A stretch of DNA of 64,000 nucleotides from Crateriforma conspicua. Lineage in GTDB: Bacteria; Planctomycetota; Planctomycetia; Pirellulales; Pirellulaceae. Positions within the stretch are counted from its first letter, which is position 1, and the number at the start of each line of letters is the position of its first letter. The stretch spans positions 6,747,155-6,811,154 of the forward strand of contig NZ_CP036319.1 in assembly GCF_007752935.1 (NCBI RefSeq), written 5' to 3'. Both the position numbers and the translations under genes were made by a program. The notes beneath the pieces are model-generated. The model had not been told where the DNA came from and did not search any database. It saw only the letters and a list, made by a program, of their open reading frames with translations. Of the stretch, positions 5,845 to 64,000 are shown one piece after another.

Positions 5845-7653
5845 TCAGCGGCGACCATACATGGGTCCAAAGTTCTGGCAGGCGCGAAAATCGGCTGATT
5901 CCAAATTGTCGGTACCGAACAGGTTCCAAGCACTCGGACGGAAAACTCGCTCCGGTTCAACGTTGTGCATGTAGACCGGGATCCGCAGAATCGACGCCAG
6001 CGTGATGAACAAATGCCCGACGTGCCCGGCGGTCATGACGCAGTGATTGGCCCCCCAGTGGTTCATCACTTCGTAGGTCGACGTGAACGCGCCCCGTTGG
6101 GTCAATCGCGGTGCAAACCACGTCGTCGGCCAAGTCGGGTTGGTCCGCTGATCCAGCTTGTCATGAACCGTGTCGGGAAGTTCCACCGTGCTGCCTTCGG
6201 CAATCTGCAGCGCCGGCCCCATTCCATCGACAAGATTGATGCGTGTCATGGTCGCCGGCATCCCGCCCTTGGTCTTGAACCGAGTGCTCATCCCGCCGCC
6301 CGGGAAGTATTCCGTCACCGAGGGATGCCAGGTGGTGACGTCCAGGCAATCGTTGACTTCGTCGTCGGTGATTTCCCAGAACGGCTTCATCGTCGGCCGC
6401 CCCTCGGCGTCGGTTTGTTGACCGGTACCATCCAAAGCGGCAGGCCCTGAATTGATCAGGTGCAACAATCCGTCTTGGGCTGCCCCGTCCAATTGGTAAC
6501 CGTCGCAAGCGGCGGCCACCGCATCGGGGCTCCAGTAGGTTCGCAGGTCGGCAAAGATCTGGGCGGTGTTGGTCAGCAAATGGCCGAACAACATGGTTGC
6601 GGCATTCAAGGCATCGTTTTCGGTTGCCACGATGTAGGGCGTTCGTTTGCCGTTCCAATCAAACGATGAATTCAGGATCGCTTCCAGGAAATCGCCGTTG
6701 GGAAAGTGGTCGGTCCACTGACGCTGGCCTTGGAATCCGGCTGCGATGGCTTGGTGACCATGCGACTGTTCGCCCAATCCTTGATCGGCCAGCTTTGGGT
6801 TGCCCACCATCAGGTCTCGAGCAATCAGAGACATCTTCACGCTATCGGCCCATTCGCTATCCAACTGCTCGCGATTGCGTCGGGTTTCGGGCGTGTTGTA
6901 ATCTTCGCCTTCGGGACATTTCTCTTTGACCCAAGCCAGAGCGCTTTCAAATTCCTGGGCGTCGTACTGTCCCTTTTGCATTCGACCGACGAACTCGGTC
7001 ATGTCGATGTCTTCGACTCGCATGCCCAACCACTTTTCCCAGAACTCGTGGTTGACGACCGACCCGGCGATTCCCATCGATGTTCCGCCCATCGACAAGT
7101 AGGCTTTGCCACGCATCAGCGCCACGGCCAAGCCGCACTGTGCAAAGCCAAGGATTTTGTTGCGGACGTCGTCGGGCAATTCCGTGTCACCGGCCGACTG
7201 CACATCGCGACCATAGATTCCAAAAGCCGGAATGCCCTTTTGCGTGTGACCGGCCAGAACCGCCGCCAAATACACCGCACCGGGCCGCTCGGTTCCGTTG
7301 AAGCCAAAGACCGCTTTGGGACGCAACGGATCCATGTCCATCGTTTCCGATCCATAGCACCAACACGGCGTGACCGTCAAAGAAACGCCGACATTTTGTT
7401 GCTGGAAATACTGTTCACACGCGGCCGCCTCGCGAACGCCACCGATGCACGATTCGGCGACGACGCACCGGACCGGATCACCGGTGGGATAGTGAAGATT
7501 GGACGAGATAAGTTCGGCCACACTATTGGCCAAATTCATCGTTTGGTCTTCCAGCGATTCACGAACCCCGCCAAGCCGACCATCGATGGTGGGGCGGATG
7601 CCGATCGCGGGAAGCGGTTCTTGAAAGACGGTGGGGGATACTTGGCGAGACAT
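5845..7653 (-). CDS. fucI: L-fucose isomerase (602 aa)
   Basis: This cytoplasmic isomerase converts L-fucose to L-fuculose, the first step of fucose catabolism; family members also act on D-arabinose. The full-length start at 7653 is kept because the typical N-terminal [14 protein letters not shown] block begins at residue 16 and would be lost at the next ATG. Active-site segments are present: VATENDALN with Glu345, [12 protein letters not shown] with Asp369 and [14 protein letters not shown] with His537, matching the metal-binding Glu, Asp and His of the family. There is no signal peptide, unlike its neighbours. It leads the operon, with the first GH29 gene starting 55 bp downstream. No fuculokinase or aldolase gene is in the window, so downstream metabolism lies elsewhere. 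Confidence 0.95.
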
Positions 7654-16498: not shown

Positions 16499-16726
16499 GC
16501 GACGTTTCACCGGCGACCGGGCCAAGTTTTCTGAACTCGGAGGCCCCCGGGAACCCCGCCCGCAATGAAAAGTTTCGCTATCTAAGGCCGATTTTCCCGC
16601 CCAAGCGTGACATTTTGTCGCTCATGTCGCACCTAAAGGTTGAGCAATGAAGCACCCAAGTCGTTGCCGAACCACCGCTTTTTTGAGCCTCCTCTGCTCT
16701 TCCCTCCACTCCGCAAAGGTGCCGCA

Positions 16727-26217: not shown

Positions 26218-26383
26218 GCTTGACCTCCAGGTACGGCGAATCGAAACACGATGGTGGAACAATTCTAGCAGCATCGATTCGTCCACGGGCCACCATCGGC
26301 AACACCCCGAACTCCGCGATCGATATGCTAGGGATCGCCAAGTCCCTTTGCCGCCCCAACGCCCCACCCCGAGAGTGTTTGTA

Positions 26384-36535: not shown

Positions 36536-38974
36536 TCAGTGGTCCCCAGCGGTGGTTTCAAACACCCATTGCCGCGACGGTTCATCGCTGGGCAAGTTGA
36601 ACGTCAATGCAAAGGTTCCCGTCGTTGGATCGCGGTCAACCTGCCACTGATCCACCCCCTGTGACGATAACTCAAACGGAACCTTTGATCCGTCGACGAT
36701 CTGGTGCAATGAAAAATCCTTGATCGTTGAAAGGCCTTCGATCCGCACCGGAATGGGTCCGACACCGTCCTGATGCCGCCATCGAACGGTCGAATCGCTG
36801 GCTCGGATCACCACGGGATACGCTTGCAACAACTGACCACCAGACACATCCGTGGCGACCTCATGGTTCGTCGCTTCACGAAGTGTGGTTTCCCATGAAG
36901 AGGGATGAACATGAAGGTGTTCGCGAAACACTTCGTTGGGTCCGTAGTAGTCCTCAGCGTTTCTCGGCAAAGTGATCAGCTCAACCATCAATTCGACTTG
37001 ATCACCGCTGCGAAAACCGGAAACCGGTTCCGGTGGCACCAACCGCAAATCCACGTTTGCCGGGCCTGACTGGTGCACCCGCACATCCAACGTCGGTCGC
37101 TGATAGACTTTGCCGCCCAAATTCGCGCGATAGCGGTGCACAATCAACGCTCGGTATCCATTGGGCTTGGTCTTCGCCGCGACGGAATACGCACCGGTCA
37201 ACGCGACCCAATGCGGAGCCTCGCCGTTCCACTGAAATGAATCGATGATACGATCCCCCTTTGCCCTTCCGGCATCCACAGGGATCTGGCGAATCAATCC
37301 GCTGCGTTGTCCCACATCGACATATGGAGTCGCATAGTGATGCGTCCGACCGAGTGAAAAAAACGAAACATCATCGGCGGACACCTCTTGGTGAAACTGA
37401 TAACGCAGCGTTTGAAACGTACGTGCATAGTCGTCGGCCCGTGCAACTTGAACATCGGCGGAAAATGAGACCTGCTGATCTGTTCCATAGAAACCGGTTT
37501 GCAGCATGCGAGGCATACACGGTCCGTGTGACAGATAAGCGGTCTTTACCCCGCGCGGATGAAACTTTTGACCGGTCACATTCCTGATGTCCAGCCAATC
37601 ACCACCCCACCCTGCTTCGGTCCAAGACCATTTCCGCCCATCGATGCCATCGCGAGCCATCAGCATGCGGATATCCGTGATCGCACAATCAACCAGACTG
37701 CGATCGCTGTCAAAGCAGATGGTTTCGCCCCAGCACCCAATTGCAAACTGATCCCATCGTCCATGACCGCCATACCCGACAAGACTTAGCTGTGCGTGAC
37801 TGGCACTGGGCAGTGCCCCGTAGAAGCCATAGGCCAATCGCAAACGATAGGTTGCCGTCTGTCGCGGAAGCATGGCGAACACAATGGCATAGCTTCCCTT
37901 CGGTTCGTAGTGCCAATTCTTACTCAGCTGAACAGGAATCCCGGTCGGTCGCCCCCGCGAATCGCATAAGACAGGGGCGATGCCCGTGATGTTGGCCGGC
38001 GATGACAAATGCAGCATGAACGGAACGGTGTCATCAACGGCTGCAATTGAATCCGTCTTTGACCGCGGAGTCACTGAGATCTCGAACTCGTCGAAGCCCC
38101 GATTGGGCTGATAACCGGTCTGAAACGGTCGACGCAAACGCCCAAACTTGACCGCATGACAAGCGTAATCATCATCGGGGCGGGCAACTTGCTGCTGTCC
38201 GTCATGAGCCATCACGGCGATATCGACCTCGGCCGTAGATGCATGCTCTTTGTCGAAATGGCAAACCATCCGAACCCGCTGCTCACCATCCTCTTCTGCT
38301 TTGACTTCGAATGATTCCGCTGCGGACCATTCCCCCATCGCACTTCTCAGGTGCAAAGACATGTCCACTGTTTTCTCGGACGGCAAGCCTTCGGCAATCA
38401 GAGTGAACACCAATCGGTCCGGCCATGCCACGATGTCCAAGCGGCTTTCGACATCCAAACGTCGCCCTGAAGCATCCAAAATTTCAAGCCCCAGAAAATC
38501 GAAGTGCTGGACGAATCTTCCGGATTCCCACAATCGCACATCGGCCAACCGCTTGAGGTCGCCTCGCGTCCCGGCGGCACAACGCTTGGCGGTATAGCTC
38601 CGACCATCGACAACCATCTGAAGCGTCAGCGACGCGGCAGGTATCGCGGCCCAGTCAGTGCACTCGGTTTCCAACGCCGCCTGATAACCGGGCATGGGTG
38701 TCGATGGACCCAGCCTAGGTTGCGACATCTGCTCAACATCCAACGCAAATTCGAACCGATCCGTTTGAATCTGAAACACATCGGGGCTCGAATCATCCTG
38801 GTTCTTTCGCCAACCGTTCTTCCAAGTTGCGAATGAATAGTGATCCGACGCGGATGCGGACGCCATGCATCCACCGATCATTGCGACAAAGGCCAGCCCA
38901 AACACAACACCGGGAAGCTGTCTGGATGTCGTTCTCCCGAAACCGTGGTGATGTAAAAAGTTCATGTGCGTCAT
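36536..38974 (-). CDS. Uncharacterised exported protein, possible lipoprotein (812 aa)
   Basis: I do not recognise the family. ATG 38974 is preferred to the longer frame to 39055 because CTGGAA lies before it and the N-terminus is then signal-like: VVFGLAFVAMIGGC resembles a lipobox ending in Cys, which would anchor the protein to a membrane. The body is mostly beta-rich with many Trp and Tyr (HYSFATWKNGWRKNQ, GFDEFEISVTPRSK, WSWTEAGWGGDWLDIRNV) and ends with TFALTFNLPSDEPSRQWVF. No catalytic motif stands out. The central part (ARTFQTLRYQFHQEVSADDV) and the pattern of sandwich-like segments could suit a polysaccharide-binding or lyase-like protein. It is flanked by sulfatases and is divergent from the one at 39315, 340 bp away. 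Confidence 0.7.
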   Translation of the reverse strand: MTHMNFLHHHGFGRTTSRQLPGVVFGLAFVAMIGGCMASASASDHYSFATWKNGWRKNQDDSSPDVFQIQTDRFEFALDVEQMSQPRLGPSTPMPGYQAALETECTDWAAIPAASLTLQMVVDGRSYTAKRCAAGTRGDLKRLADVRLWESGRFVQHFDFLGLEILDASGRRLDVESRLDIVAWPDRLVFTLIAEGLPSEKTVDMSLHLRSAMGEWSAAESFEVKAEEDGEQRVRMVCHFDKEHASTAEVDIAVMAHDGQQQVARPDDDYACHAVKFGRLRRPFQTGYQPNRGFDEFEISVTPRSKTDSIAAVDDTVPFMLHLSSPANITGIAPVLCDSRGRPTGIPVQLSKNWHYEPKGSYAIVFAMLPRQTATYRLRLAYGFYGALPSASHAQLSLVGYGGHGRWDQFAIGCWGETICFDSDRSLVDCAITDIRMLMARDGIDGRKWSWTEAGWGGDWLDIRNVTGQKFHPRGVKTAYLSHGPCMPRMLQTGFYGTDQQVSFSADVQVARADDYARTFQTLRYQFHQEVSADDVSFFSLGRTHHYATPYVDVGQRSGLIRQIPVDAGRAKGDRIIDSFQWNGEAPHWVALTGAYSVAAKTKPNGYRALIVHRYRANLGGKVYQRPTLDVRVHQSGPANVDLRLVPPEPVSGFRSGDQVELMVELITLPRNAEDYYGPNEVFREHLHVHPSSWETTLREATNHEVATDVSGGQLLQAYPVVIRASDSTVRWRHQDGVGPIPVRIEGLSTIKDFSLHQIVDGSKVPFELSSQGVDQWQVDRDPTTGTFALTFNLPSDEPSRQWVFETTAGDH

Positions 38975-39314
38975 TGTGTTCCAGTCACACCGTCGGACCG
39001 TTTTCTGCCGAGTCTTGGACCACGCGGCTTCCCCGCAATTGGCGGGAAAGAACATCCCATTCCGACGGCATTTTCCAAAGTACAGTCCGCCGCGGCTTGG
39101 TCGCCGGCGATCAAAGCGTCAATGGTCGCACCCCCAGTCCCCGACGTCCAGCAACCGCCCATCATCTGGCTTGGGTCAAAAAGAAGCAGCACAGCGGATC
39201 GTCAATTGTTTACAATCTGAAGGTGCGTCGTGGATGCGACGCCCGGCATGAAATATCCGACGAAGCTTCGGCCGCCCCCCCTCCACCAAGCGTCATCCCT
39301 CCAAGCAATTCGCC
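38975..39314. promoter_or_regulatory. Divergent intergenic region, nothing specific seen
   Basis: These 340 bp lie between the divergent starts of the uncharacterised exported protein and a sulfatase. Short frames on both strands overlap one another and have no family features. I find no repeat, RNA gene or convincing promoter consensus, though two promoters must be here. Confidence 0.4.
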
Positions 39315-41311: not shown

Positions 41312-43687
41312 ATGTTGACATCCTTCGCCCAACTACGCCTGGCCGTGATGCTTGTGTCGGCGGCATGCCTGGCCACCATCTGTCCCGTGCATGGCCAGCA
41401 ACTAAGCCAAGAAGGCTTAGCACAACAAGCAACGCATCATTTTCTGTTTGACGACTTTGCCAAAGACCGCCAAACCACGTTCACCGGTAATGGGCGTGAC
41501 CGTGGATTGAAAGAGCTGACAATTCTGACCGAAACGCACCAGATCGGCGACGGTGACGAAATCCTGTTGCCCGAGGGTGCCGAACGGATCGCCGGACTGT
41601 TTCGCCACTTTGCGTTTCACGGTGAAAACCTGCACCGTATCGCCGAAGTCCGGGTGTTCCCGTTCTCGCCCGACAAAGCTCCCCCGCGTAGCAAGCAAGT
41701 CGAAGACTTTTATCGCGTTCAAATGCCGTCGATTCCGTTGATGGACTCAACACCATCGCGAATGAAGATGCGGTTTCTGATGAAGCAAAAGAATGAAACC
41801 TGTCGCATTGACGACTTGGTTTTCATTGCCCAAAAAGCGATCCCACCACAGTTTGACACGATCCCCTATCGCGACCTGGGATCAGAATTCCCGCGTGATC
41901 GGGTGGAAATCCAATTGGACACCGATCACGAATTGTCCGTTGGTGGAACCAGCCGTCTGCAACGCGATCGATGGTTCCGGATGCATGAAACACCTGGAAC
42001 CGTCGATGCCACGTTTGAAAACTGGGCCGCCCAACGCGGATTCCTGACCGGTCGCGGTGCGTTCAAGTTCAATCCGGGACTGACCCGAAGCTGGGGCGGA
42101 TCCGAAGTGTTGCAGGAAAGCAAAACACAGCCCGGCGCCGCTGACATGAGCTTCTTTGATCGATACGACGCCGGCGTTCGTTTGCGAAAGGCAATCCCGC
42201 TGTACCAAGAAAAGCCGTTCGCATGCTGTTTCAACGACTGGCCTGATTTCATGTCCGTGCCCCTGGTCGGACGTGGCACACCTCAAGTGGAACACTTTGA
42301 CGACGCCGCGGAATTGGCGGCCGCTCTGGTCGCCGAACAGATCAAGGATGCCGGTTACAGCGCCCATTGGTGGGAAGTCAAAAACGAAAGCAGCGTCCAA
42401 TCCGAATGGGCCCATCACTGGCAGGAAAGCAAAGGCATCGACGGCTGGGGGTTGCTTGCCGATTTTCACAATCGAGTCGCGGAAGCCGTCCATCAGCGTT
42501 CGCCCGAAACCCAAGTCGGCGGTCCATCATCCGCCTACATGCAACTGCAAGTCAAAGACTTTGATCTGTATCGCAACCAAGCCCGGTTTATCGAAGAAAC
42601 GCGCGGCCACATTGACTTCTTCTCGCATCACTTTTACGAGAACGCGTTGATGCTCGGTGCTCACGAGCGTCGTGGGCTGGGCTATTCGAACTACCTGTTG
42701 GGCCGATACGAAGCCATTTTGGACATGCTTCGTGCGCACATGCACAAAGTCGACAATGTGTTGCCGATCCTGATCACCGAATGTGGATCGCTGCAAAACG
42801 GTCGCCAGCCATCGGACAATTGGCTTCGGCTTTACGCCTGGAACGCCTATCTGAATAAGTCGATGCAGCGTCCCGATCAGATCGACTTGTTTGTTCCGTT
42901 TATCTTCTTGCACATGTCGTGGAACCCCAACAGCGGCGACGCCGCGTTCACACCTAAAACCGATCGCGACCGCCACCGAACGATCGAAGATTTTGATCGC
43001 ACAACGGTTTCACACTACTTCGATCTGTGGAGCGACTTTGACGGGAACCGGCTGCCGGTCGACTTCCAACGCGATTGGCTGGACGTGGTTGCCGTGCATG
43101 ACGGTGAACGTATCTCTTTGGCGGTGACCAACATGGGTGGACGACAAATCGCCATCGATCTTTCCGATGTTGCCCAACGCGTCGGTGCAAGTGCTGCGAC
43201 ACAGACTCGGCTGAATTACCATCGTGGCCAAGTCGTCTTTGAACCGGAACATTCCGTGGACGCGTCGAAGATCCCCGTCGATGTCAACGAAACCACTGTG
43301 ATTCGGCTTTTGTTGCCCCAGCCGCTTACCCCCGCAGGAACACTGGTAATGGATCGAAATTATGCCCATGCGACGGCGATCAAAAGCGACGGCCAATCCA
43401 AGACCTTCCGAATCAACGTTACCGACGCGGCGCACGTCAAACACGCCAAACTGATTGTCGGTGTGCATCGAAGCGGCGGCATCACGGAACCCTTGGCCGT
43501 TCAAATCAATGGCACGCCGGTTTCAATTGATACCGGCGACGCTGATGAATTCTCCGAGTTCTTCGCACCATTGGACGCAGCCATTCTTCCATCGTTGATA
43601 CAGCAAGAAAACCAGATCGACATTGTCGCCCAACCCGGGACGACGATCACATCCGTCCAGTTGCAAACGTTACGCGACGCAGACTAG
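41312..43687 (+). CDS. GH86-like (clan GH-A) glycoside hydrolase, putative agarase/porphyranase-type (791 aa)
   Basis: This exported protein (signal MLTSFAQLRLAVMLVSAACLA) has an N-terminal beta domain (about 30-200) and a TIM-barrel-like middle. HWWEVKNESSV carries a candidate acid/base Glu359 preceded by Asn, the clan GH-A pattern. PILITECGSLQNG carries a candidate nucleophile Glu490, 131 residues later. FFSHHFYENALM lies between them and PFIFLHMSWNPN after. C-terminal beta domains follow (about 590-791). I associate this arrangement with GH86, known for beta-agarases and beta-porphyranases, but the family call is from memory of the motif pattern and should be tested. GH39- or GH50-like membership is possible. 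It follows a sulfatase gene on the same strand. Confidence 0.58.
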   Translation: MLTSFAQLRLAVMLVSAACLATICPVHGQQLSQEGLAQQATHHFLFDDFAKDRQTTFTGNGRDRGLKELTILTETHQIGDGDEILLPEGAERIAGLFRHFAFHGENLHRIAEVRVFPFSPDKAPPRSKQVEDFYRVQMPSIPLMDSTPSRMKMRFLMKQKNETCRIDDLVFIAQKAIPPQFDTIPYRDLGSEFPRDRVEIQLDTDHELSVGGTSRLQRDRWFRMHETPGTVDATFENWAAQRGFLTGRGAFKFNPGLTRSWGGSEVLQESKTQPGAADMSFFDRYDAGVRLRKAIPLYQEKPFACCFNDWPDFMSVPLVGRGTPQVEHFDDAAELAAALVAEQIKDAGYSAHWWEVKNESSVQSEWAHHWQESKGIDGWGLLADFHNRVAEAVHQRSPETQVGGPSSAYMQLQVKDFDLYRNQARFIEETRGHIDFFSHHFYENALMLGAHERRGLGYSNYLLGRYEAILDMLRAHMHKVDNVLPILITECGSLQNGRQPSDNWLRLYAWNAYLNKSMQRPDQIDLFVPFIFLHMSWNPNSGDAAFTPKTDRDRHRTIEDFDRTTVSHYFDLWSDFDGNRLPVDFQRDWLDVVAVHDGERISLAVTNMGGRQIAIDLSDVAQRVGASAATQTRLNYHRGQVVFEPEHSVDASKIPVDVNETTVIRLLLPQPLTPAGTLVMDRNYAHATAIKSDGQSKTFRINVTDAAHVKHAKLIVGVHRSGGITEPLAVQINGTPVSIDTGDADEFSEFFAPLDAAILPSLIQQENQIDIVAQPGTTITSVQLQTLRDAD

Positions 43688-43798: not shown

Positions 43799-44473
43799 TC
43801 AGGTTTGACGTTCGCGTTCCAGCAACCATCTCTTACGCCACACCCCACCGGCGTACCCATTCAGTTTCCCATCAGCGCGAACGACGCGATGACAGGGAAC
43901 CAAAATCGCCAATCGATTCTGGCCATTGGCGCGTCCCACGGCTCGCTGGGCACCAGGCTTTCCGACTCGACTGGCCAGTTCTTGGTAACTGATGGTCGCA
44001 CCAGGAGGGATCGAACACAGTTGCTCCCAAACCGCACGCTGAAATTCCGTGCCCCGAAGTTCGTACGGGACGGTGAACTTGCTACGGTGGCCACAGAAGT
44101 ACTCCTGCAACTGTTCTTCCGCTTGCCTAATCAACGAGTTGGACTCAACACGAAAGTCGGCACAAAACAACGTCTGTGTGTTCTGCAAATGTGCTTCCAA
44201 CGTTTCTTGATCGGCAAACTCCAACAGAATCAACCGCTGTGGGTCAGCGGCCACCACCATCGGTCCCAAAGGGGTCGTGATCCGAGCCAGGGAAGCCGGC
44301 ACAGCGATTCGGCCACGTGCCGGCGGGCGACCTTGGGCCCAGCGTTGAAGCATCGCGTCGGCCGATCGATCGTTCTGGTCTGTCTGCGTCAACAGTCCCT
44401 TTAGAACACATTGCCGGGGAACCGACGCAGGTTCGTGCATTCCCAACTTCGTCTCAGTCGGTTCGCCGTCCAT
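43799..44473 (-). CDS. ogt: Methylated-DNA--protein-cysteine methyltransferase (224 aa)
   Basis: This protein repairs O6-alkylguanine by transferring the alkyl group to its own cysteine in a single-use reaction. The acceptor is Cys194 in LVPCHRVV, preceded by GRANGQN and followed by GKLNGYAGG. The DNA-binding wing lies in TEFQRAVWEQLCSIPPGATISY. An N-terminal ribonuclease-H-like domain (about 65-140) precedes it, and there is a further 50-60-residue N-terminal extension without recognised features. The ATG at 44473 shares its A with the TGA of the upstream gene (TGATG), so translation is coupled to an uncharacterised exported propeller protein. A DNA repair gene inside a polysaccharide locus is unexpected. 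The longer GTG start at 44476 is possible. Confidence 0.94.
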   Translation of the reverse strand: MDGEPTETKLGMHEPASVPRQCVLKGLLTQTDQNDRSADAMLQRWAQGRPPARGRIAVPASLARITTPLGPMVVAADPQRLILLEFADQETLEAHLQNTQTLFCADFRVESNSLIRQAEEQLQEYFCGHRSKFTVPYELRGTEFQRAVWEQLCSIPPGATISYQELASRVGKPGAQRAVGRANGQNRLAILVPCHRVVRADGKLNGYAGGVWRKRWLLERERQT

Positions 44474-46080
44474 CACTTCAGATTACCGTGATACAAGTAC
44501 AAGGCACCGTAAGTCCAATTTCGCTTTGGCATCCCCGGAAAATTGGCCCGATCCATCATCAACGCGACATAGGGGGCCGGATACCCGGACGGAAGCGGAA
44601 TCACGTTGGGCCAAATTCGAGTTCCATGATCGTCATTCCAGGGTGGACGATGAATCTGTAACTCCCCGACCGGCTTCAGATCAGGATAACTTCGAACATA
44701 GACCGTTCGATCGGCGCTGCCGAACAGGGCGAATCGCTTATCGCCGAATTGCTGGATCTGCGTGCCCGTGCTGTCGACTTCTACCGGACCGGCGATCCGC
44801 TGATAGCCATGATCCCAGTGATCGCTTTCCCACATGGCCGCCTTGTATCCACCTGCATTCTCGCACAACAGCAAACGCCATTTCCCATCGCGGCTATCGT
44901 ACACACCGTGCGGATCTTCATGCGCACCGTCGATGCCAACCGGCCGCGCCTTCATGATCGAATATCCTTTGCGTGGGTCTCGATCTGAATGGACCGCAAG
45001 GATCGATTTGGATTCATTGCGGCCTTTGCTTCCGAACGCGCTGAAACCGGTCGTCCAACCACGCCATTGTCCCGTCGTTGAATCGCGAAACAAGTGCGAC
45101 GCCAATTCGTTGCGCAACAGCCCATCCCCCATATCGAACACAATCAAGCCTTCGAAACGAAGATCGAATACGGATGGGTTCAGCGAAAACACGCCTTGGG
45201 CTGGATGCGGAAGCGCACGTCCGCGAATGGTGACGGTGAACCACAATCGCCCGTCATCCAATAAGGGGCGTCCCTGTTCGTCGGTGATGGCACGAATGTC
45301 CGCCTGACCGGTCCCCGGAGTGATCGCCGCGGTCACCCGTCGAATCTTGATCTCGGATGAATCCTTCAAATTGGCAGTGGCCATGAATTCGTACCGAAAT
45401 GCTACAGCCTTGTCTCTTAGCTCCAGATGCTCCGAAAAATCGATGTACCCGATCAACCGGCTGCGACCAGATGTTTCAATGAACACGTTCGCGCCGACCG
45501 CCGCCATCTGGACCCTCAGAACACAGGATGCTTTCTTAATTTGGTGATCCTCTAGATTCCAGACATGGGACTGAACGTCGTTGCCATCAATGTGCGTCGT
45601 CCATCGCACCTGATTCGGCCGATCATTTTGAAACAGCAATTCGGCTTCCAAAAAATCAGTCGACCCTGAATCATCCAACCGGATTCCAACCGCCCCGTTT
45701 CCGATGATCGAAGCAATCTCCACTTCATAGGTCGCAAAAGGGTTGACACTACCGATCCATCGCCGCGTCAACGATCGTTCAGATTGTCCGGCCTTGACGA
45801 TCAGGTGCCCAGATTCCAGCCTGCAAACCGCACGCTCACTTGCGGGAACGTTGTCCGGATGCATCAAATCCAGATCAATCGCTTTGGAAGGTGACAAACC
45901 AGCAAGTGGAATCGCCTGTTCGGAATCAAAAACCATTCGCCGCACCGCTTGCCGACGAAACTGGATCTGATCTGGCCGAATGTCTTGGCCAATCGCCATG
46001 CCGCCAACGATCAAGCCACCCAGCATCCAAATCGTGATCGTGCCAAGGGTTCTACGAGAAAAGTGTTCCGTGTGGGTCAT
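44473..46080 (-). CDS. Exported protein with GH43-like propeller C-terminus, uncharacterised (535 aa)
   Basis: The ATG at 46080 gives a signal/anchor (HFSRRTLGTITIWMLGGLIVGGMAIG). The first half (about 60-300) is a beta-sandwich-like domain resembling laminin-G or concanavalin folds (YEVEIASIIGNGAVGIRLDD, LEAELLFQNDRPNQVRW). The second half (about 300-535) has propeller-type blade repeats found in GH43/GH32-like proteins: GYSIMKARPVGIDGAHEDPHGVYDS, KWRLLLCENAGGYKAAMWES, RFALFGSADRTVYVRSYPD. The pair DGAHEDPH resembles acid positions of such enzymes, but I cannot define a catalytic triad. It is divergent from the sulfatase at 46299 and coupled to ogt. Hydrolase or binding function on the polymer is inference. 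Confidence 0.65.
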   Translation of the reverse strand: MTHTEHFSRRTLGTITIWMLGGLIVGGMAIGQDIRPDQIQFRRQAVRRMVFDSEQAIPLAGLSPSKAIDLDLMHPDNVPASERAVCRLESGHLIVKAGQSERSLTRRWIGSVNPFATYEVEIASIIGNGAVGIRLDDSGSTDFLEAELLFQNDRPNQVRWTTHIDGNDVQSHVWNLEDHQIKKASCVLRVQMAAVGANVFIETSGRSRLIGYIDFSEHLELRDKAVAFRYEFMATANLKDSSEIKIRRVTAAITPGTGQADIRAITDEQGRPLLDDGRLWFTVTIRGRALPHPAQGVFSLNPSVFDLRFEGLIVFDMGDGLLRNELASHLFRDSTTGQWRGWTTGFSAFGSKGRNESKSILAVHSDRDPRKGYSIMKARPVGIDGAHEDPHGVYDSRDGKWRLLLCENAGGYKAAMWESDHWDHGYQRIAGPVEVDSTGTQIQQFGDKRFALFGSADRTVYVRSYPDLKPVGELQIHRPPWNDDHGTRIWPNVIPLPSGYPAPYVALMMDRANFPGMPKRNWTYGALYLYHGNLK

Positions 46081-46298
46081 CACAAGAAGTTCCGAACTAG
46101 ACGCCGAGCAATTCAAGTACAATCAAAAACTTTACAATGGTGACGCTAAACACCTGCGGACCGATCGACCAGATCCCATCCGAACTTTCGACAGCGTCTC
46201 CGATCCCGCGGCCCAATCGCTACACATCATCGCGATTCGTTCCCCAAAATCTGGGCACGCCGATTCCTTCCCGAAGATGCCAGCGACCAGCACCGACG

Positions 46299-55885: not shown

Positions 55886-57391
55886 TCAATCTAGACTCAG
55901 GGCGAACCCAACCACCATGGAGTCCGGCATTTCATCGGGCAAACGAATTGTCAGCCCGTTGATCGAACGCTCCCACCGAATGACTTCATCGCTGCCCAGC
56001 ATCCTTATTCCGGTGATGGACTGATCCAATAGACCGTTACTGGAAAGCGTTTTGATCAAAATATCTTCCGTCGGACGCGCCAGCACAAATGCATACAATG
56101 TCGCGTCTTTCGTGGTGAAGCGTATATCTTGCTGAGAGAAGTCCCGTCGGTTCTCGCCCTGACGCCCGTCTTTGATCTTTAACGGACCCTCACCGAAGAC
56201 CTTCCAGGGTCGTGTGCCGTAAATCCCTTGCCCATTGACTTTTAGAAAGTCACCGAATGCGGTCAAATATTCTGCTTGGCTTTCCGGGATAGTGCCATCA
56301 CCCTTTAATGCGATGTTCAACATCACCACGCCGTTCTTGCTGATCGCGTCCACCGAATTACCAACCATGACCGGGATGCTCATCCGGTTTACAGCGGTCG
56401 CTCGATAGAACCATCCGCCTGATAAATCAGTCGCCCAAATCCATGGCTCCGGTTTGATCTCCCCTGCACCACCACGTTCCAGGTTGTATGTAAATGCCGA
56501 TCGATCCACTTTCGCGTCTTTAAACGACAGCACGACGGTCTGCTTCCCGCCGTTTTGTCGTCGATCACGATTCAAGTAGTTTGTAAACAACTGGATCCCT
56601 AAACCGTTGCCCCCATCGATCTTCGGATACGGCGAATCGTTATTGAACATGTCCGGATCATATTTTTCGATAATCTCCCAACACCGGTCGTACCAATGCT
56701 GATTCCAGCTATCTTGCGTCGCATAGCCCTGCGGATCGTAGTCCATGTTGAACAAAGCCCACTCCGCGGTCCCAGGCGTTTGGTACTTCCTGGCATTCGC
56801 GAAAAAACGTGGTGACCAGTAGAGATGCGTCGACACGCCGAATTTAAGTCCATGCTTCCGTGCCGCAGCCTTCCATTCTTTCAAAGTATCTCGTCGCGGC
56901 CCCATCTTGACCGAATTCCATGGGTGTGAGGAGTCATACATGTCGAAGTTGTCGTGGTGACAGGCAACGGGCATGATGAACCTGGCCCCGTTTTCTTTGA
57001 CGAACTGCACGATCGCATCGGGATCCCAACTCTCAGCCTTGAACAGCGGAATCAGGTCTTCGTAGCCAAACTCCTCCAACGGCCCGTATCGCTCAATGTG
57101 CCACTTTGTCAAAGTTTCACTCATGCCCATCTCTTCGTCGGCCATTCCATCAGGCGGTGGCGAATACATGCGACGCCCATAGTGCGATCCATCATTGGGC
57201 CGATTTTCGTCGGCGGCCGATGAGATTCCCCAATGGAACCAGACGCCGATTTTCCCGTCGACAAACCACTGTGGCACCTCGTAGTGCTCTGCTAGCGATT
57301 CCCAAGTCGGCTCGATTTCCTGGGCCGCGACTGAATCCGCCAAGATCCCAAAACTGAATACACAACAAAGAAGAAAGATATTTCGAATCAT
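55886..57391 (-). CDS. Alpha-L-fucosidase, GH29, second subtype (501 aa)
   Basis: This is an exported GH29 enzyme (signal MIRNIFLLCCVFSFGILADSV). It differs from the three at 1050-5789 and resembles the GH29 half of the neighbouring fusion: PQWFVDGKIGVWFHWGISS, an insert rich in PPPDGMADEEMG, FGYEDLIPLFKAESWDPD, CHHDNFDMYDSSHPWNSVKMGPRRD and HGLKFGVSTHLYWS. The likely nucleophile is Asp252 in DPDMFNNDSPY, where the usual W-x-D-G reads F-N-N-D-S. LNIALKGDGTIPESQ closes the barrel, and a C-terminal beta domain runs to the end (RPTEDILIKTLSS). It lies 67 bp downstream of the fusion gene. The altered nucleophile context may mean a different alpha-L-sugar. Confidence 0.9.
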   Translation of the reverse strand: MIRNIFLLCCVFSFGILADSVAAQEIEPTWESLAEHYEVPQWFVDGKIGVWFHWGISSAADENRPNDGSHYGRRMYSPPPDGMADEEMGMSETLTKWHIERYGPLEEFGYEDLIPLFKAESWDPDAIVQFVKENGARFIMPVACHHDNFDMYDSSHPWNSVKMGPRRDTLKEWKAAARKHGLKFGVSTHLYWSPRFFANARKYQTPGTAEWALFNMDYDPQGYATQDSWNQHWYDRCWEIIEKYDPDMFNNDSPYPKIDGGNGLGIQLFTNYLNRDRRQNGGKQTVVLSFKDAKVDRSAFTYNLERGGAGEIKPEPWIWATDLSGGWFYRATAVNRMSIPVMVGNSVDAISKNGVVMLNIALKGDGTIPESQAEYLTAFGDFLKVNGQGIYGTRPWKVFGEGPLKIKDGRQGENRRDFSQQDIRFTTKDATLYAFVLARPTEDILIKTLSSNGLLDQSITGIRMLGSDEVIRWERSINGLTIRLPDEMPDSMVVGFALSLD

Positions 57392-57458
57392 GTTTCGATC
57401 GTTATGAGAGGCTAGCGAAACTCAACCGGTCGGTTCATCGGACCGGTTTTGCGGCACG

Positions 57459-60400
57459 TTATTCAAACTCAACGGACAGTTCCTGAAAGGCAGTGTTTTC
57501 CCCTCCGCCAGTCGTCGTGATCGGTGCGACCGCCCAGACGATCCAGCGGAACTTTCCGAGCGTCGTTTCGTCGGACGAACGCAGTGACGCGGCGGTGAAC
57601 TTTCCGATGGCTTGGCCTGACGTATCGATCTTCCCCAGCGGGACAAATTGACGGAGATCCCAACCCGGATCGGTCGAGGCGTCACTGCCAAACAGTGCGA
57701 TACGTTGATGCCCACGAAAGCCACGCTGGTTGTGCGACCAACTCGTAATCGACGAAATGGAATGCACGGCCCCAAGATCCAACTTGTACGCCCCGTTGCG
57801 CACTCCGTTCTTGAAAACGGGTCCAAACCCTTCCTCTAGCTTGCCATCTGTCAATAAAGCCACCGGGTCGTTGCTCGTCATGTGATTCGTTGTGATCACC
57901 GCATCACAGACCTTTGGAACGAGTTTTTGAAAGCCTTCTGGGCTATTCGCCGTCTCGATCACAACCGATGTCCCCGGAAGATTTTGAATTTCCGATAGAT
58001 CATGGCCTTCCAGATCGACTTTCCTTGTCCCCTTCAACGCTTCATCCGCGTCATTTTGAATGACATTGGGAACATGCTGGTTGCGGATGGTAACGATTTC
58101 AAATGCCCATGCGTATCGACTGATCCCAGAATCATCTGGCGGAACGATTCTCAACCCCTGGGGCGTCATGCTCCAGGACACATTCGCATCGGCACCGAGC
58201 AAACGCACCGACCGCACTTCATCGGACTTCCAGCCTGCGGTCCCCACGATCTTGAAAGGTTCCGAAGGTTCCTCCATCTTGATGGCATAAAGATTGTTCC
58301 CCTTCGTCGTAAATACCAGACGTTCGTCTCCTTGATCACTGACCTTCCAGTATCGCGAGCCATAGATTGCATCTCCATTAATTTTTAGCCACTGCCCCAT
58401 CGCCCGAAGACGCTCGACCTGTTCGGGAACCAGCGTCCCATCACCCTTGGGTCCGATATTGATCAAAAAGTTCCCGTTCCGGCTGACCACCTCGACCAAT
58501 TCATGGATGACGCTTTCAACCGTTCGATAACGATCCCCTTCCAAATATCCAAAGGAAGAACCGAACGTGGTGCAGCTTTGCCATTTCGGCCCGATCACCT
58601 TTAGCTTCAGGTTGTCCTTTTCCAAACATCCCACGCCGGCAGGCCAATTCGGATTGCCACCCTTGTTGTTGCAATACACTTGCTGCCCACGGTCCGCGGC
58701 GTCATTCATGAAATCAGTGATCATGCGACGCATCTGATCGTCGAGGTACTTGATTTCCGGCTTCATCCTCCCGCTACGAACTTGGTTCCCATCACGCGTG
58801 TAGATCGGAAAGTCATCAACCCACAACATATCTGGGTGATACTTTTCTTGGATCTCCTTCCACCTTGCAACGTAGTCGTCCACAAACGCCTTGCTGTAGG
58901 AAAACGGACCGTATAACGACGCAGCCTGGGGCATTCGCCGTATTTCTTCGGCAATATCCTCACGTGGCTCACTGTGAACGACATACTTCTCTTGTGCAAA
59001 GAACCCGGTGTGTCGCTCGCGATGATACGAGGGAGCGTATTTCAACCCATGTTGACGCAGCGCTTTGCCAAGATCACCAACCAAATCTCGCTTCGGCCCC
59101 ATTTCGACAGCATTCCAGGGCGTCAGATCCGAATCCCAGTTTGCCCATCCGTCATGATGCTCTGCGGTGAAAACCACGTATTTTGCGCCGACTTCTTCAA
59201 AGAGCTGGGCCCATTGGTCTGGGTCCCACTTTTCCGCTTTGAACTCTGGGACAATGTCCTTGTATCCAAACTCCGGAGGTTTTTCCCCCCATCGTTCTTG
59301 CATGTAGGGGTAATAATGCCCTGGGTCCTCGTACAGCAACTTCGGAACATGTTCCGCATAGCCCCGACTTCCTTTGCGATAACCGACTTCACTGTAGGGT
59401 CCCCAATGGATAAAAATTCCAATTTTCCCATCGTCGAACCACTCTGGAACAGGCATTTTCTGTAACGCTTCCCAAGATCCATCGTACGGACGCTTCATCG
59501 GCCCCGTTGCAGCGACACCTGTCTTTGCCGCGTTCGAGACAACCAATTCGGATTTCGCATTCTTCTTGCGTTTGGGTTGCCAATTTGTCTTTTTCCAGAG
59601 ATCAATTTCTGCGTCATTGGACTGCGGCTGACCTGGAGTACTGCGTCCCTTTGCGACGTAAGACTCAAGTAGCGTCAGGAGTTCCTTGGCTTTGTCCGGA
59701 TACTGTTCGATAACATTGTGGCGTTCGCCGAAATCTTCGTTAATGCGGTAGAGTTGCATTTCCGGTAGACCGGCTTTGATCGCGGCCACTCCGACCGGAG
59801 CGGTCCAGCCACCCGAACCAGGCGCGAGCAGCAATTTCCAGCCACCCTGCCGAATCGAAAAGTGTCCCGCAATCGAATGATGCACCACCGATGTGCGTAC
59901 ATTTTTTCCCGGACGGTCCAACATTGCGTTCAGGAAGCTGATACTGTCTTCTGCCACGTCGTCCGATAGATCCACGGAGAAGTATTCAGCAAAGGTGGCC
60001 ATGATGTCCGTCAAACAAACCAATTGATCTGATGTCGACGACGGTTTGATGACTCCGGGCCATCGAACGATGAATGGCACGCGGTGTCCGCCTTCCCATA
60101 GATCAGCTTTCGATCCCCGAAAATCGGCACTAGGAAAGTGACCTTGAGCCTGTAGATCCGGAATCTTTGCGATGCGTGAGGTTCCGTTGTCCGTGCTAAA
60201 AATGACAATCGTGTCGTCGCTTAGGTGATTGCGTTCCAAAGCCTTCAAGACTTCCGCCACCGCACCGTCCGTCTGCGCCACAAAATCGCTGTATGGCCCC
60301 ATGCCGCCTTTGCCTTCCCATTCTGCGGCGGGCACGATCGGTGAATGCGGCGAATTTAAAGGAAGGTACAAAAAGAACGGCTTCCCAGATTCAGAATCCG

Positions 60401-61076
60401 ACGCGTGCGCATCGATATACTGAACGACCTCTTCGGTTAATCTCGGCAACATCTCGACGACATCAATCTCTTCGATGATTCGGTCGTCGCGGACCAGGCT
60501 GCTCATCGATCTTGAATGATGAAAACCAAGAAATGTATCGAACCCGCGTGTGATAGGACCGTCAGGAATGTGCGTCCCGACGGGAACCGGAGCAGCGTAT
60601 CGACTTTCGGCCTGATTGGGCTGGACGTTCTTCAGGCCCTCAGGAACTTGATAGTGATATTCCAGATGCCATTTTCCGAAAATGGCGGTTTGATATCCTT
60701 GTCGGCGAAACAGCGACGCAAGGGTGACACGATCATCTGCGATCAGTGGCTCTCCGCCACCGGTCAAGACGCCACGCTGCAAACGCGATCGCCAACTGTA
60801 TCGCCCGGTCAGCAAGGAATACCGCGATGGCGAGCACACCGATGAACTGGTATGCGCATCGGTAAAGACTTTTCCCTCTGCCGCCAATTGATTCAAAGCG
60901 GGCGTCGGGATCTTACTGCGTTCCGGGTTCAGTGCTTCGATTTCCCCATAGCCCATATCATCTGCAAAGATGAAGACCACATTGGGCCGCGCGGTTGGCT
61001 CACCACAAATGCCTCCACCGGCACCGCAGTTCCCAAGAAGCACAAAAACCGCCAAAATCGCCGACTTATTCGTCAT
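57459..61076 (-). CDS. Sulfatase-GH29 fucosidase-discoidin-like fusion protein (1205 aa)
   Basis: This single frame encodes two enzymes. The ATG at 61076 (2 bp after the upstream stop) opens a signal peptide (NKSAILAVFVLLGNCGA). The sulfatase part, about 30-483, has VVFIFADDMGYGEIEALN, CSPSRYSLLTGRYS with formylglycine Cys81, IFGKWHLEYHY, LNSPHSPIVPAAEW and IFSTDNGTSRIAK. A basic linker (about 495-530, with KRKKNAK) follows. The GH29 part, about 540-905, has PEWFDDGKIGIFIHWGPYS, FTAEHHDGWANWDSDLTPW and DMLWVDDFPIY, in which Asp754 is the likely nucleophile, then LINIGPKGDGTLVPEQ. The last 155 residues resemble a discoidin/F5-8C binding domain (YKLDLGAVHSISSITSWSH). Desulfation and fucose release from the same chain end is the obvious reading. 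Confidence 0.93.
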   Translation of the reverse strand: MTNKSAILAVFVLLGNCGAGGGICGEPTARPNVVFIFADDMGYGEIEALNPERSKIPTPALNQLAAEGKVFTDAHTSSSVCSPSRYSLLTGRYSWRSRLQRGVLTGGGEPLIADDRVTLASLFRRQGYQTAIFGKWHLEYHYQVPEGLKNVQPNQAESRYAAPVPVGTHIPDGPITRGFDTFLGFHHSRSMSSLVRDDRIIEEIDVVEMLPRLTEEVVQYIDAHASDSESGKPFFLYLPLNSPHSPIVPAAEWEGKGGMGPYSDFVAQTDGAVAEVLKALERNHLSDDTIVIFSTDNGTSRIAKIPDLQAQGHFPSADFRGSKADLWEGGHRVPFIVRWPGVIKPSSTSDQLVCLTDIMATFAEYFSVDLSDDVAEDSISFLNAMLDRPGKNVRTSVVHHSIAGHFSIRQGGWKLLLAPGSGGWTAPVGVAAIKAGLPEMQLYRINEDFGERHNVIEQYPDKAKELLTLLESYVAKGRSTPGQPQSNDAEIDLWKKTNWQPKRKKNAKSELVVSNAAKTGVAATGPMKRPYDGSWEALQKMPVPEWFDDGKIGIFIHWGPYSEVGYRKGSRGYAEHVPKLLYEDPGHYYPYMQERWGEKPPEFGYKDIVPEFKAEKWDPDQWAQLFEEVGAKYVVFTAEHHDGWANWDSDLTPWNAVEMGPKRDLVGDLGKALRQHGLKYAPSYHRERHTGFFAQEKYVVHSEPREDIAEEIRRMPQAASLYGPFSYSKAFVDDYVARWKEIQEKYHPDMLWVDDFPIYTRDGNQVRSGRMKPEIKYLDDQMRRMITDFMNDAADRGQQVYCNNKGGNPNWPAGVGCLEKDNLKLKVIGPKWQSCTTFGSSFGYLEGDRYRTVESVIHELVEVVSRNGNFLINIGPKGDGTLVPEQVERLRAMGQWLKINGDAIYGSRYWKVSDQGDERLVFTTKGNNLYAIKMEEPSEPFKIVGTAGWKSDEVRSVRLLGADANVSWSMTPQGLRIVPPDDSGISRYAWAFEIVTIRNQHVPNVIQNDADEALKGTRKVDLEGHDLSEIQNLPGTSVVIETANSPEGFQKLVPKVCDAVITTNHMTSNDPVALLTDGKLEEGFGPVFKNGVRNGAYKLDLGAVHSISSITSWSHNQRGFRGHQRIALFGSDASTDPGWDLRQFVPLGKIDTSGQAIGKFTAASLRSSDETTLGKFRWIVWAVAPITTTGGGENTAFQELSVEFE

Positions 61077-61078
61077 CT

Positions 61079-62827
61079 TCAAAGCGCCTTTACCTCGGTG
61101 AAGTAGGCACCGCCGGCTTCACCGTTTTCATCAAACAGATAGGTTGTCAATTCTGTGGGACCCGCCGGAAGACCCAGCTCAAAAACGACTTTCAAGCGAT
61201 CCGATTTGACGGGCAACTCCTTGACCATGCCCGCAATTTCAATCCTCGCGAGTTCACCCACGACAGGCTTGTTCGTCTGCTTCGGAAATTGGCGAAGCGT
61301 GATCCGATAACGTCCGGCCTTCTTCACCCTCAGCATCCATGGCCCGGTGACCTTGGGCAATCGCTTGATTGCATTGAAATTCCAGGGCGGGTTTCCGCTG
61401 GCCATTCGCCAATCCTGGGAACAAAGTATCGTCGGATTCTCAGCATCACTTCCGATGTCAATCCTAACCGGCGTCAACCGGGGCGATATCGTATTCCAGT
61501 ACTTTTGATACTTCGTTCGTAGTTTTGCGATGACATCAGGATGCATCTTTGCCAGATCCGTTCGCTGCGCAGGATCCGCCTGTATGTCAAAGAGGCGTTC
61601 ACCGCCGGAATTCACCAGCCGCCAGCGTTCCGTCATCACAACGCTAAAGTGAAATGGCTGAGGCGGAAATTCCTTCGCATACGCTCCACCGAGGAACTGT
61701 TCCACCAGGTGGTCACGCGGCCATGGTTCGACAGAGCCCCGCAATAATGGAACCAGCGAAGTCCCATCGGTCCGGATATCGTCGGGTATTGGAATCCCGC
61801 ACAGATCCGCCAGCGTGGGCAGCACATCAAGGTGCGCGGCCAAAGTATCGATATCCCTTCCTCCGACCAGCCTCCCTTTCGGCCAATGCATAAAAAATGG
61901 GACACGATGGCCACCGTCGTAAAGCGATGATTTCTTGCCTCGCATCCCGGCGTTGTATCCCCGACTTGGCTCCGAATCCAATCCGCGAAAACTCCCACCC
62001 GCGGCCGTCCCGTTGTCGGTCATGAAGATCAGTATCGTATTCTCATTCAAACCGAGCTCCACAAGCCGGTCTCGCAGTCGCCCCATATTGTGATCAATGT
62101 TGGCGATCATTCCGTAGAAATTCGCATTGGCAACGTCTTTTCGCCTCGCATAGGGCTCGGCCCACTTTTGGTCCACACGATAGGGTCCATGCGGTGCATT
62201 CGTTGCTAGATAGAGAAAAAACCGCTTGTCTTGGTTGTCTTCGATGAAGCGAAGCCCTTCTTGGAACCAAACATCCGTGCAATAGCCGTCGAACTTTTCA
62301 AAGTTACCGTTGCGTTCGTAGACATCGTCGAAATAGTCGTTGCCCCAATAATCCGATGCTTGCCCCACGCCACCACACCGGTGCCACACCACATGCTGGA
62401 AACCGCGGTCCTGCGGGCGATGCGGCGCGTTGTCGCCGAGATGCCATTTGCCAATCATCGCTGTGGCATAGCCTGCACTTGAAAACAAGTCACCGAGCGT
62501 CTTCTGATCCCGGTGCATCATCGTGCGTCCCGAACTGGTTCGAAACGCACCGGTGTACCCCGCATAGTTGCCAGTCATCAGCGATGCACGCGTCGGCGTG
62601 CAAAAGGGACTGACGTGGAAATCCGTGAAACGAATCGATTCGCGATACAGCGTATCGAGATTCGGCGTTTGAAGAATCGGATTGCCATGGCATGACAGAT
62701 CGCCATAACCTTGGTCATCCGTCATGACGAGTATAACGTTCGGTGGGTCCATTGGGATACCCGCGCGGGCCGGAATACCGAGATGGGTCAGCAGCAGAAA
62801 GATGATCACGATCATTCGAGGCGCCAT
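61079..62827 (-). CDS. Sulfatase with C-terminal beta domain, CxPTR type (582 aa)
   Basis: This is an exported sulfatase. ATG 62827 is preferred to the GTG at 62830 because GAGGAA, overlapping the stop of the upstream gene, lies about 5 nt in front. The signal is RMIVIIFLLLTHLGIPARA. Motifs are VILVMTDDQGYGDLSCHGN, CTPTRASLMTGNYAGYTG with formylglycine Cys76, MIGKWHLGDNAPHRP, ATNAPHGPYRVDQKW and IFMTDNGTAAGGSF. Residues about 450-582 add a beta domain (PWMLRVKKAGRYRITLRQFP, LELGLPAGPTELTTYLFDE) seen in several planctomycete arylsulfatases and perhaps used for binding. It resembles the sulfatase at 26384. The fusion gene begins 2 bp after its stop. Confidence 0.95.
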   Translation of the reverse strand: MAPRMIVIIFLLLTHLGIPARAGIPMDPPNVILVMTDDQGYGDLSCHGNPILQTPNLDTLYRESIRFTDFHVSPFCTPTRASLMTGNYAGYTGAFRTSSGRTMMHRDQKTLGDLFSSAGYATAMIGKWHLGDNAPHRPQDRGFQHVVWHRCGGVGQASDYWGNDYFDDVYERNGNFEKFDGYCTDVWFQEGLRFIEDNQDKRFFLYLATNAPHGPYRVDQKWAEPYARRKDVANANFYGMIANIDHNMGRLRDRLVELGLNENTILIFMTDNGTAAGGSFRGLDSEPSRGYNAGMRGKKSSLYDGGHRVPFFMHWPKGRLVGGRDIDTLAAHLDVLPTLADLCGIPIPDDIRTDGTSLVPLLRGSVEPWPRDHLVEQFLGGAYAKEFPPQPFHFSVVMTERWRLVNSGGERLFDIQADPAQRTDLAKMHPDVIAKLRTKYQKYWNTISPRLTPVRIDIGSDAENPTILCSQDWRMASGNPPWNFNAIKRLPKVTGPWMLRVKKAGRYRITLRQFPKQTNKPVVGELARIEIAGMVKELPVKSDRLKVVFELGLPAGPTELTTYLFDENGEAGGAYFTEVKAL

Positions 62828-62835
62828 CACGTTCC

Positions 62836-64000
62836 TCAGTTTGCGAATACCAAAGTCATCCGATCAATGATCGGCTTAGATGGATTATCCGTGGAGTCCG
62901 TTAAACGCAGTTGGACCTGGAACCCGAAACCTGCTGGCAGTTCAGATGAATCCATTGTGGCGGGCGTTCTCTTAATTTGCTTTGAAAAGCCCGGGATGTA
63001 ATCGTATCGCTCCTTCACTTCGTCCCAATCGGTCCATTGATCGATCACCTGATCATTGTTGGTGTCAACACCAACGCGTGCTTCCACCGTTTCAACCCAG
63101 GGACCAGGACTAACGAAATCCGTACTCTGTTGGGTGGCAAGATAAAACCGACCTTCGGCAAACGCGATATCCGGATCGGGGTGGCCGTTTCCGATGTTAC
63201 CGCACCAGGTGAAGGGCTCATTGATCGAGGGTGCAGTGAACCAGCCCACGCTCATTTGATGACCGCCGACGGGATCGTAGTCTCCGAACAGATAGTACTG
63301 ACCACCAACACAGATCGCCGCCCAATCACCGTAGGCCTCCTGCTCGGGATGGTGAATATCGTACTCCGCCACATTGGTCGGATAGTTTTCCGGGTCTTCC
63401 TTCATCCAATGAGGATGCTTGTATTTTCCGATCTTCCCAGTCGGATTGGTACGATGATCCACCGGCGGATCCATGAATCGGAAATCATCGATACCATTCG
63501 AACTGACCGCGTGGCCCGCCAGTGGCGAATCCCAGGAGCGTTTATTGGCACTAATCGGAGTCCAGTCTTCAATAATGACATGCATATTTCCTTCCAGGTC
63601 TCGGATGAACCCGGCATCACTTCCGTGTGACGGGTCCTTCACGGCAAGCCCCATATTCTTGCCCGGAACTCCATCGAACAGATCGTCGTCGACATAGACA
63701 TGCGGATCCTGATCGTTCGGAAAGTCGTAATAGATGTAGGCTTTTCCGTCGACCCATTCGGCGCTGGTCACCCACTTCGAAAAGCCCTCGGTGACCGGAC
63801 CATGGTGCACCCAATGCTTCATGTCGCGACTTTGCCAGGCGTGATATCCACCCCTTCCAGATTGCAGGCCTCCCGGCGCGTCATACTGATTCGGAAATGG
63901 CGTCGTCAACAAGGGTACATCAAACCCTTCCAGAGTTGCTGGTTGAGGCTTAATGGGTTGTGGCGGTACCTTGCCCTGCCCTTTCTTTCCTTTCGTTTTG
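62836..64000 (-). CDS. Five-bladed beta-propeller glycoside hydrolase (GH43/GH32-like), 5' end outside window
   Basis: The frame is open to the window edge, so the start and any signal peptide are missing; a TTG at 63912 is internal. The visible N-terminus is a basic, proline-rich linker (GKKGQGKVPPQPIKPQPA) followed by the propeller. Blade features are YHAWQSRDMKHWVHHGPV, SAEWVDGKAYIYYDFPND, IRDLEGNMHVIIEDW, GDWAAICVGGQYYLFGDYDP and GHPDPDIAFAEGRFYLATQ. The last contains an Asp-Pro-Asp that resembles acid residues of clan F/J enzymes. A C-terminal beta domain ends in IDRMTLVFAN. The next gene's ribosome-binding site overlaps its stop, showing one operon. I cannot assign a specific family or substrate. 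Confidence 0.72.
   Translation of the reverse strand, partial: KTKGKKGQGKVPPQPIKPQPATLEGFDVPLLTTPFPNQYDAPGGLQSGRGGYHAWQSRDMKHWVHHGPVTEGFSKWVTSAEWVDGKAYIYYDFPNDQDPHVYVDDDLFDGVPGKNMGLAVKDPSHGSDAGFIRDLEGNMHVIIEDWTPISANKRSWDSPLAGHAVSSNGIDDFRFMDPPVDHRTNPTGKIGKYKHPHWMKEDPENYPTNVAEYDIHHPEQEAYGDWAAICVGGQYYLFGDYDPVGGHQMSVGWFTAPSINEPFTWCGNIGNGHPDPDIAFAEGRFYLATQQSTDFVSPGPWVETVEARVGVDTNNDQVIDQWTDWDEVKERYDYIPGFSKQIKRTPATMDSSELPAGFGFQVQLRLTDSTDNPSKPIIDRMTLVFAN

Follow-up and report, generated by a model that had tools for sequence, protein, structure and literature searches.

A sulfatase-GH29 fusion protein in Crateriforma conspicua and the exchange of fusion partners around one GH29 clade

The window analyzed here, a stretch of 64,000 nucleotides from the planctomycete Crateriforma conspicua (family Pirellulaceae; NZ_CP036319.1, positions 6,747,155 to 6,811,154), contains on its minus strand a gene (57459..61076) in which a sulfatase and a GH29 glycoside hydrolase are joined in one polypeptide of 1205 aa, arranged as sulfatase, linker, GH29 and C-terminal F5/8C-like domain. 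The frame is unbroken from the ATG at 61076 to the stop codon at 57461-57459 (a listing of 1207 aa corresponds to a start at a TTG two codons upstream of the ATG). Pfam profiles of both catalytic domains matched far over their cut-offs, Sulfatase at aa 31-366 (E 2.9e-51) and Alpha_L_fucos (PF01120) at aa 528-902 (E 3.5e-90), and Fucosidase_C (aa 915-994) scored under its own. Within the genus, a second species (G001) codes for the same protein, with 1205 residues and 93% identity, and this equal frame and length in another genome excludes a frameshift or an assembly error. An earlier interpretation made from the letters alone (the sequence-only reading) had described a single 1205-codon frame with two complete-looking catalytic sites and a basic linker, and on these points our analysis agrees with it. 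A scan of positions 57300-61300 gave no promoter-like site, and terminator-like sites numbered 3, with 4.3 expected.

The sulfatase domain (aa 25-490; 59607..61004) has Cys81 as the first residue of CSPSR (C81-S-P-S-R85), in agreement with the formylglycine motif C-x-P-S-R. The other positions typical of S1 sulfatases are also filled (D39/D40, R85, K135, H137, H244, D296/N297 and K323), and we take their roles with metal and sulfate to be those usual in S1 chemistry. The conversion of Cys81 is supported by the presence of five FGE-type genes over the cut-off in the genome; an anSME-type maturase (TIGR03942) gave one match, under the cut-off. When the predicted fold was compared with solved structures (Z 41-45), six of the seven top matches were titled S1_15, the remaining one being the N-acetylgalactosamine (GalNAc)-6-O-sulfatase 6s20. 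A phmmer search concurred. Hence, in sequence and fold, this is an S1 sulfatase closest to S1_15, with a predicted 6-O-activity on galactose or GalNAc. As described in the literature, the characterized S1_15 enzymes remove the 6-O-sulfate of galactose or GalNAc (PMC12549532), the family is listed among the sulfatases of fucoidan degraders (PMC12786026), and its genes have been located beside GH29 genes in Verrucomicrobiota (PMC8857213).

The GH29 domain, including a Fucosidase_C-like part (aa 521-995; 58092..59516), has a TIM-barrel fold, and its model matches BpGH29 with a Z of 35. This exo-α-L-galactosidase of a porphyran locus is the nearest solved GH29, with an identity of ca. 28-34%. D754, proposed before as the likely nucleophile, is aligned to the BpGH29 Asp whose replacement by Asn gives the D264N entry. 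It is also aligned, over a short and weakly matching stretch, to D224 of the Thermotoga enzyme. At the edge of an aligned stretch, S683 matches a Ser of BpGH29, and the Thermotoga fucosidase has Tyr171 there, a residue that we take to line the C6 pocket. The domain belongs to a tight clade with 70-93% identity to the window copy (29 other rows, alignment A1), and D754 is invariant in its 30 sequences. E819, the putative general acid/base, is equally invariant (30/30), at a position that is described as aligning poorly across GH29A (PMC10154630).

The linker (aa 491-525; 59502..59606) is basic (KRKK), predicted to be disordered and poorly conserved between the two species. The C-terminal domain (aa 1001-1205; 57462..58076) had been called discoidin-like, and this stands by fold and fails by hidden Markov model, as no match to F5_F8_type_C (PF00754) appeared with E up to 1, nor any sequence match in the PDB with E up to 10. 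Modeled alone (35 sequences, alignment A2; pLDDT 80.9, pTM 0.77), it shows from ca. aa 1034 a galactose-binding/F5-8C/CBM32-like fold, a beta-sandwich, with a Z of ca. 13 (maximum, 14) to CBM32 modules and F-lectins/fucolectins and with Foldseek E values of 1e-6 to 1e-4. Carbohydrate binding by this predicted F5/8C/CBM32-like fold is putative. Similar tails occur in 50 of 241 genomes of the family. Altogether, the data support the view that a single chain holds two catalytic sites that look complete, together with a domain whose fold is of the sugar-binding type. The full-length model was poor (pTM 0.48; linker pLDDT 26-36; poor C-terminal part) and unfit for geometry, so the idea that the two active sites face each other cannot be claimed from it.

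Comparison of the two species gave identities of 94% for the sulfatase, 93% for GH29, 92% for the C-terminal domain and 74% for the linker. The dN/dS values of the sulfatase (0.094) and GH29 (0.092) were nearly equal, indicating purifying selection of similar strength and thus that both catalytic domains matter; they were 0.38 in the linker and 0.27 in the C-terminal domain. This exact fusion (its sulfatase type is labeled SA) was seen in 2 of the 241 family genomes. The GH29 clade itself was found in 26 of them and, counting that of the window, in 2 of 392 genomes sampled evenly across the phylum. We examined 33 clade frames (three were fragments or cut by contig ends, and one was just 46% identical), and 11 of them carry a second catalytic domain, which varies in type and position. 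Besides SA-GH29-tail (the window and G001), we found GH29-tail-SB (G013, G045, G586 and G635), SUP-GH29 without the tail (G070 and G493) or with it (G598), SX-GH29-tail (G585) and a GH141-like N-terminal part joined to GH29 (G584). Further cases are GH29-tail-SJB in a metagenome-assembled genome of Verrucomicrobiota, GH29-tail-SB12 in Pontiellaceae and, outside the tight clade (GH29 51% identical), GH43-like-GH29 in Aeoliella (L209). The sulfatases SA, SB, SUP, SJB and SB12 share ≤34% identity pairwise, and SX and SUP share 43-45%. Their nearest solved relatives also differ: S1_15 for SA, the S1_19 carrageenan sulfatase 6prm for SUP, the S1_25 module of P36 (6hr5) for SB12 and weakly for SB, and 2qzu for SJB.

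In a tree of the GH29 domain, 14 of 91 rows were fusions, involving eight partner types; the tight clade accounted for 13 of these among its 80 rows, in various orders and with seven partner types (six sulfatases and one GH141-like). To explain this distribution, the partner state must have changed 11 times or more, compared to the minimum possible of 8; one of these changes may be an artifact of L086, which ends at a contig edge and was scored as unfused. The tree was made with a quick method and has many weak inner branches, with long-branch rows at L199, L209 and L213; some of the named loci come from the same genomes as those with G handles, and identical sequences entered once. The loci with the clade derive from Planctomycetota, Kiritimatiellota, Verrucomicrobiota, Bacteroidota and one Gayadomonas, and no fusion was found in the 27-row branch that contains those of the last two. 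We also inspected the flanks (≤6 kb, some contigs being shorter) of 67 named loci with the clade at ≥60% identity. A sulfatase-like gene was a neighbor in 51. At set identity thresholds, separate neighbors were SA-like in 23, GH43-like (≥50%) in 21, GH141-like in 10, SJB in 6, SUP in 5, SB12 in 3 and SB in 2 (SX was left out), so that seven of the eight fusion-partner types are also found as separate neighbors.

This last observation would also be expected if the fusions were nearly neutral, i.e., adjacent operon genes that lost a stop codon without benefit, something common in sulfatase-rich planctomycetes, for which published estimates give 34 and 21 multidomain sulfatases in two genomes (PMC4807772); moreover, the unfused forms are the majority (77/91). 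However, the fusions concentrate in the tight clade, with its 13 fused rows and seven partner types. Among the ca. 150 SA-sulfatase matches listed (241 genomes, up to six scored per genome), the only ones in frames of >1000 aa are the two of this genus, and a neighboring GH29 clade had none in such frames among 17 near-full-length matches (three were in frames of 881-904 aa). We consider a neutral origin very unlikely. The exchange of partners suggests instead tethered co-action on one polysaccharide, and not a built-in channel. In the same direction, the disordered linker and the attachment of different sulfatases at either end of GH29 speak for, rather than prove, a flexible tether over facing sites.

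The surroundings of the gene are rich in related functions. On the same strand there is a run of a GH43-like gene, a sulfatase, the fused gene, a second GH29, two sulfatases, a 3-keto-disaccharide hydrolase-like gene, a sulfatase and another GH43-like gene. The first of them (62836..63999, minus strand) is cut by the window edge. The separate sulfatase that follows (583 aa; 61079..62830, minus strand) ends 2 nt upstream of the ATG of the fused gene, and in G070, G493 and G598 a homolog of it (68-76% identical) forms a direct fusion with GH29 of this clade. The next gene downstream is the second GH29, with 501 aa and of another clade (55886..57391, minus strand). Elsewhere in the window there are three further GH29 genes, more sulfatases, a beta-helix protein with a C-terminal PDZ domain (8080-10551, plus strand; a GH141-like relative) and a GH86-like gene. 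The latter (41312-43687, plus strand) codes for 791 aa, with a C-terminal half that matches the GH86 beta-agarase/beta-porphyranase type (8h97, E 2.8e-21; 4aw7, E 1.2e-18), and in Pfam its BPA_C tail alone passes the cut-off. Relatives of the beta-helix/PDZ protein in other genomes, with weak matches to the GH141 insertion domain, bear the F5/8C-like tail of the fused protein. A protein of G037 (L046:1729-6120) has 1463 aa with beta-helix, PDZ, tail and sulfatase in that order, and G584 (L092) has two adjacent long fusions, GH141-like plus GH43-like (1446 aa) and GH141-like plus GH29 (1650 aa). The window holds a further sulfatase fusion (23932-26574, minus strand), of 880 aa, with a sulfatase (150-455) and a BD-FAE-type esterase (624-817). 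Also present are an 813-aa animal heme peroxidase with a dockerin-type domain (16640-19081, plus strand) and, inside the sulfatase cluster, two long frames (839 and 549 aa) to which no Pfam profile matched (36536-39055 and 44473-46122, both minus strand).

A fucose polysaccharide had been proposed as the target, and this gains support from an L-fucose isomerase (FucI) gene in the window (5845..7653, minus strand), ca. 50 kb from the fused gene, and from its co-occurrence with the clade. Full-length FucI is present in 30 of the 241 family genomes, the clade in 26 and both in 23, i.e., 23/26 with the clade versus 7/215 without it (Fisher, 6e-23); counted by genus, which corrects partly for relatedness, it is in 9 of 10 clade genera (1e-8). 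The count of 30 refers to matches with E 1e-74 or better, from 100 genomes at E 0.001 and 32 over the cut-off, two of which were dropped as short 28-bit matches. In 6 of the 23 genomes, the two genes share a contig and lie within ca. 14-51 kb of each other. Several observations weigh against fucose. The distance is 166 kb to several Mb in 5 of the 23 and the genes are on different contigs in 12, a full-length isomerase match is absent from 3 of the 26 clade genomes, no FucI was found in the flanks of the 67 loci, and the GH29 with the closest solved structure is BpGH29, an L-galactosidase. In addition, fucose lacks a 6-OH (there is no O6), and since the characterized S1_15 enzymes are 6-O-specific, the sulfatase may take its sulfate from a residue other than the one freed by GH29. 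This point speaks against a model built on the sequence-only reading, in which the sulfatase and then GH29 act on the same terminal fucose, with their sites facing each other. The disordered linker and pTM of 0.48 also count against it, and the different sulfatases carried by relatives on either side of GH29 indicate that no fixed geometry has been kept. In its favor, the domains are fused and both are intact, and P36 of Formosa agariphila handles sulfated rhamnose in consecutive steps, its domains having been analyzed separately (PMC8511951). On balance, we regard it as rather improbable.

The L-galactose that the same reading had put in brackets fits the pairing of a 6-O-sulfatase with this GH29 better than fucose does. 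Under this alternative, the protein would be a one-polypeptide counterpart of BpS1_11 plus BpGH29, in which the S1_15-like domain would remove a terminal 6-sulfate and the BpGH29-like domain would free L-galactose from a porphyran-type galactan. The closest solved sulfatases, acting on galactose-6-sulfate or GalNAc-6-sulfate, the closest solved GH29, the Ser-type residue at S683 and the GH86-like gene in the window are in line with it. So is BPA_C, the porphyranase C-terminal-type domain (E 0.001 or better in 38/241 genomes, 35 over the cut-off), present in 18/26 clade genomes versus 20/215 others (Fisher, 4e-11). However, FucI co-occurs more tightly with the clade, the identity to BpGH29 is low, and the GH141-like neighbors in 10 of the 67 loci belong to a family described as including fucoidan endo-fucanases (PMC12786026). 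Genomic context favors fucose and the nearest structure L-galactose as the released sugar, and we find the L-galactose alternative unlikely. As the substrate, we favor a sulfated polysaccharide that contains fucose, possibly a galactofucan, in which the residue attacked by the sulfatase would be close to the sugar that is released.

We therefore propose, with a probability of roughly 0.55, that the fused protein is a probably secreted bimodular exo-enzyme of a pathway for such polysaccharides. The N-terminus, judged by eye, is signal-like, and the protein may be exported. The sulfatase, once Cys81 is converted to formylglycine, would strip a sulfate blocking the chain end or a neighboring residue. 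With D754 as the nucleophile of a retaining reaction, GH29 would then free alpha-L-fucose (or alpha-L-galactose) from the chain end. The C-terminal domain may serve as an anchor to the glycan or to the cell, and the flexible linker would hold both enzymes on one substrate with no fixed channel. More speculatively, the GH29 clade could be the constant core of a modular system for fucan degradation, to which neighbor enzymes have been repeatedly tethered. Planctomycetes, repeatedly, and, in this sample, one kiritimatiellote and one verrucomicrobium would each have tethered an obstacle-removing neighbor suited to their own algal glycan, be it one of the six sulfatase types or the GH141-like enzyme, or the GH43-like one for the more distant GH29. 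If so, the fused partner would predict the sulfate position or branch encountered by that lineage. Which enzymes act side by side in fucan breakdown is poorly known, and natural fusions hint at consecutive steps; the seven or eight partner types fused to this GH29 clade narrow down to a few testable candidates the enzymes that may work on the same substrate.

The sequence-only reading had called the protein a distinctive solution to sulfated fucan degradation, which seems too strong. Apart from the relatives with other sulfatases on the same GH29, two fusions were reported by annotation in 2019 (PMC6388578), an S1_15 sulfatase/GH29 in Pontiella desulfatans F1 (PDESU_05015) and an alpha-L-fucosidase/sulfatase in Rhodopirellula rubra SWK7 (RRSWK_03833). 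Like the window protein, they join a sulfatase and GH29 in one gene of Planctomycetes-Verrucomicrobia-Chlamydiae bacteria, the sulfatase being named as S1_15 for Pontiella; this likeness is taken from their published description. A protein of R. rubra CECT 8075 differs from that of the window in being GH29-tail-sulfatase, with another sulfatase that is 28% identical to the one of the window protein. The kind of fusion is thus already known; in the open-access full-text literature we found no characterized GH29-sulfatase fusion and no description of partner exchange around one GH29 clade. BT1624 (7oze) and S1_15A and S1_15B of Pseudoalteromonas (9bas and 9bav) rank with the top matches of the fused sulfatase by both fold and sequence (30-36% identity over 405-412 residues) but have no GH29 attached, and the latter two are described as acting on galactose-6-sulfate (PMC12549532). 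The separate BpS1_11 and BpGH29 proteins of Bacteroides plebeius resemble the proposed sequence of steps, a sulfatase clearing the terminal sugar that GH29 then releases, but with another sulfatase subfamily and on L-galactose of porphyran (PMC12316285). P36, a GH78 rhamnosidase with S1_25, is similar in having an exo-sulfatase and an exo-glycosidase in one polypeptide; its families and polysaccharide (ulvan) are different, and the consecutive action of its domains at the non-reducing end has been shown by activity (PMC8511951), whereas the window protein is known from its sequence.

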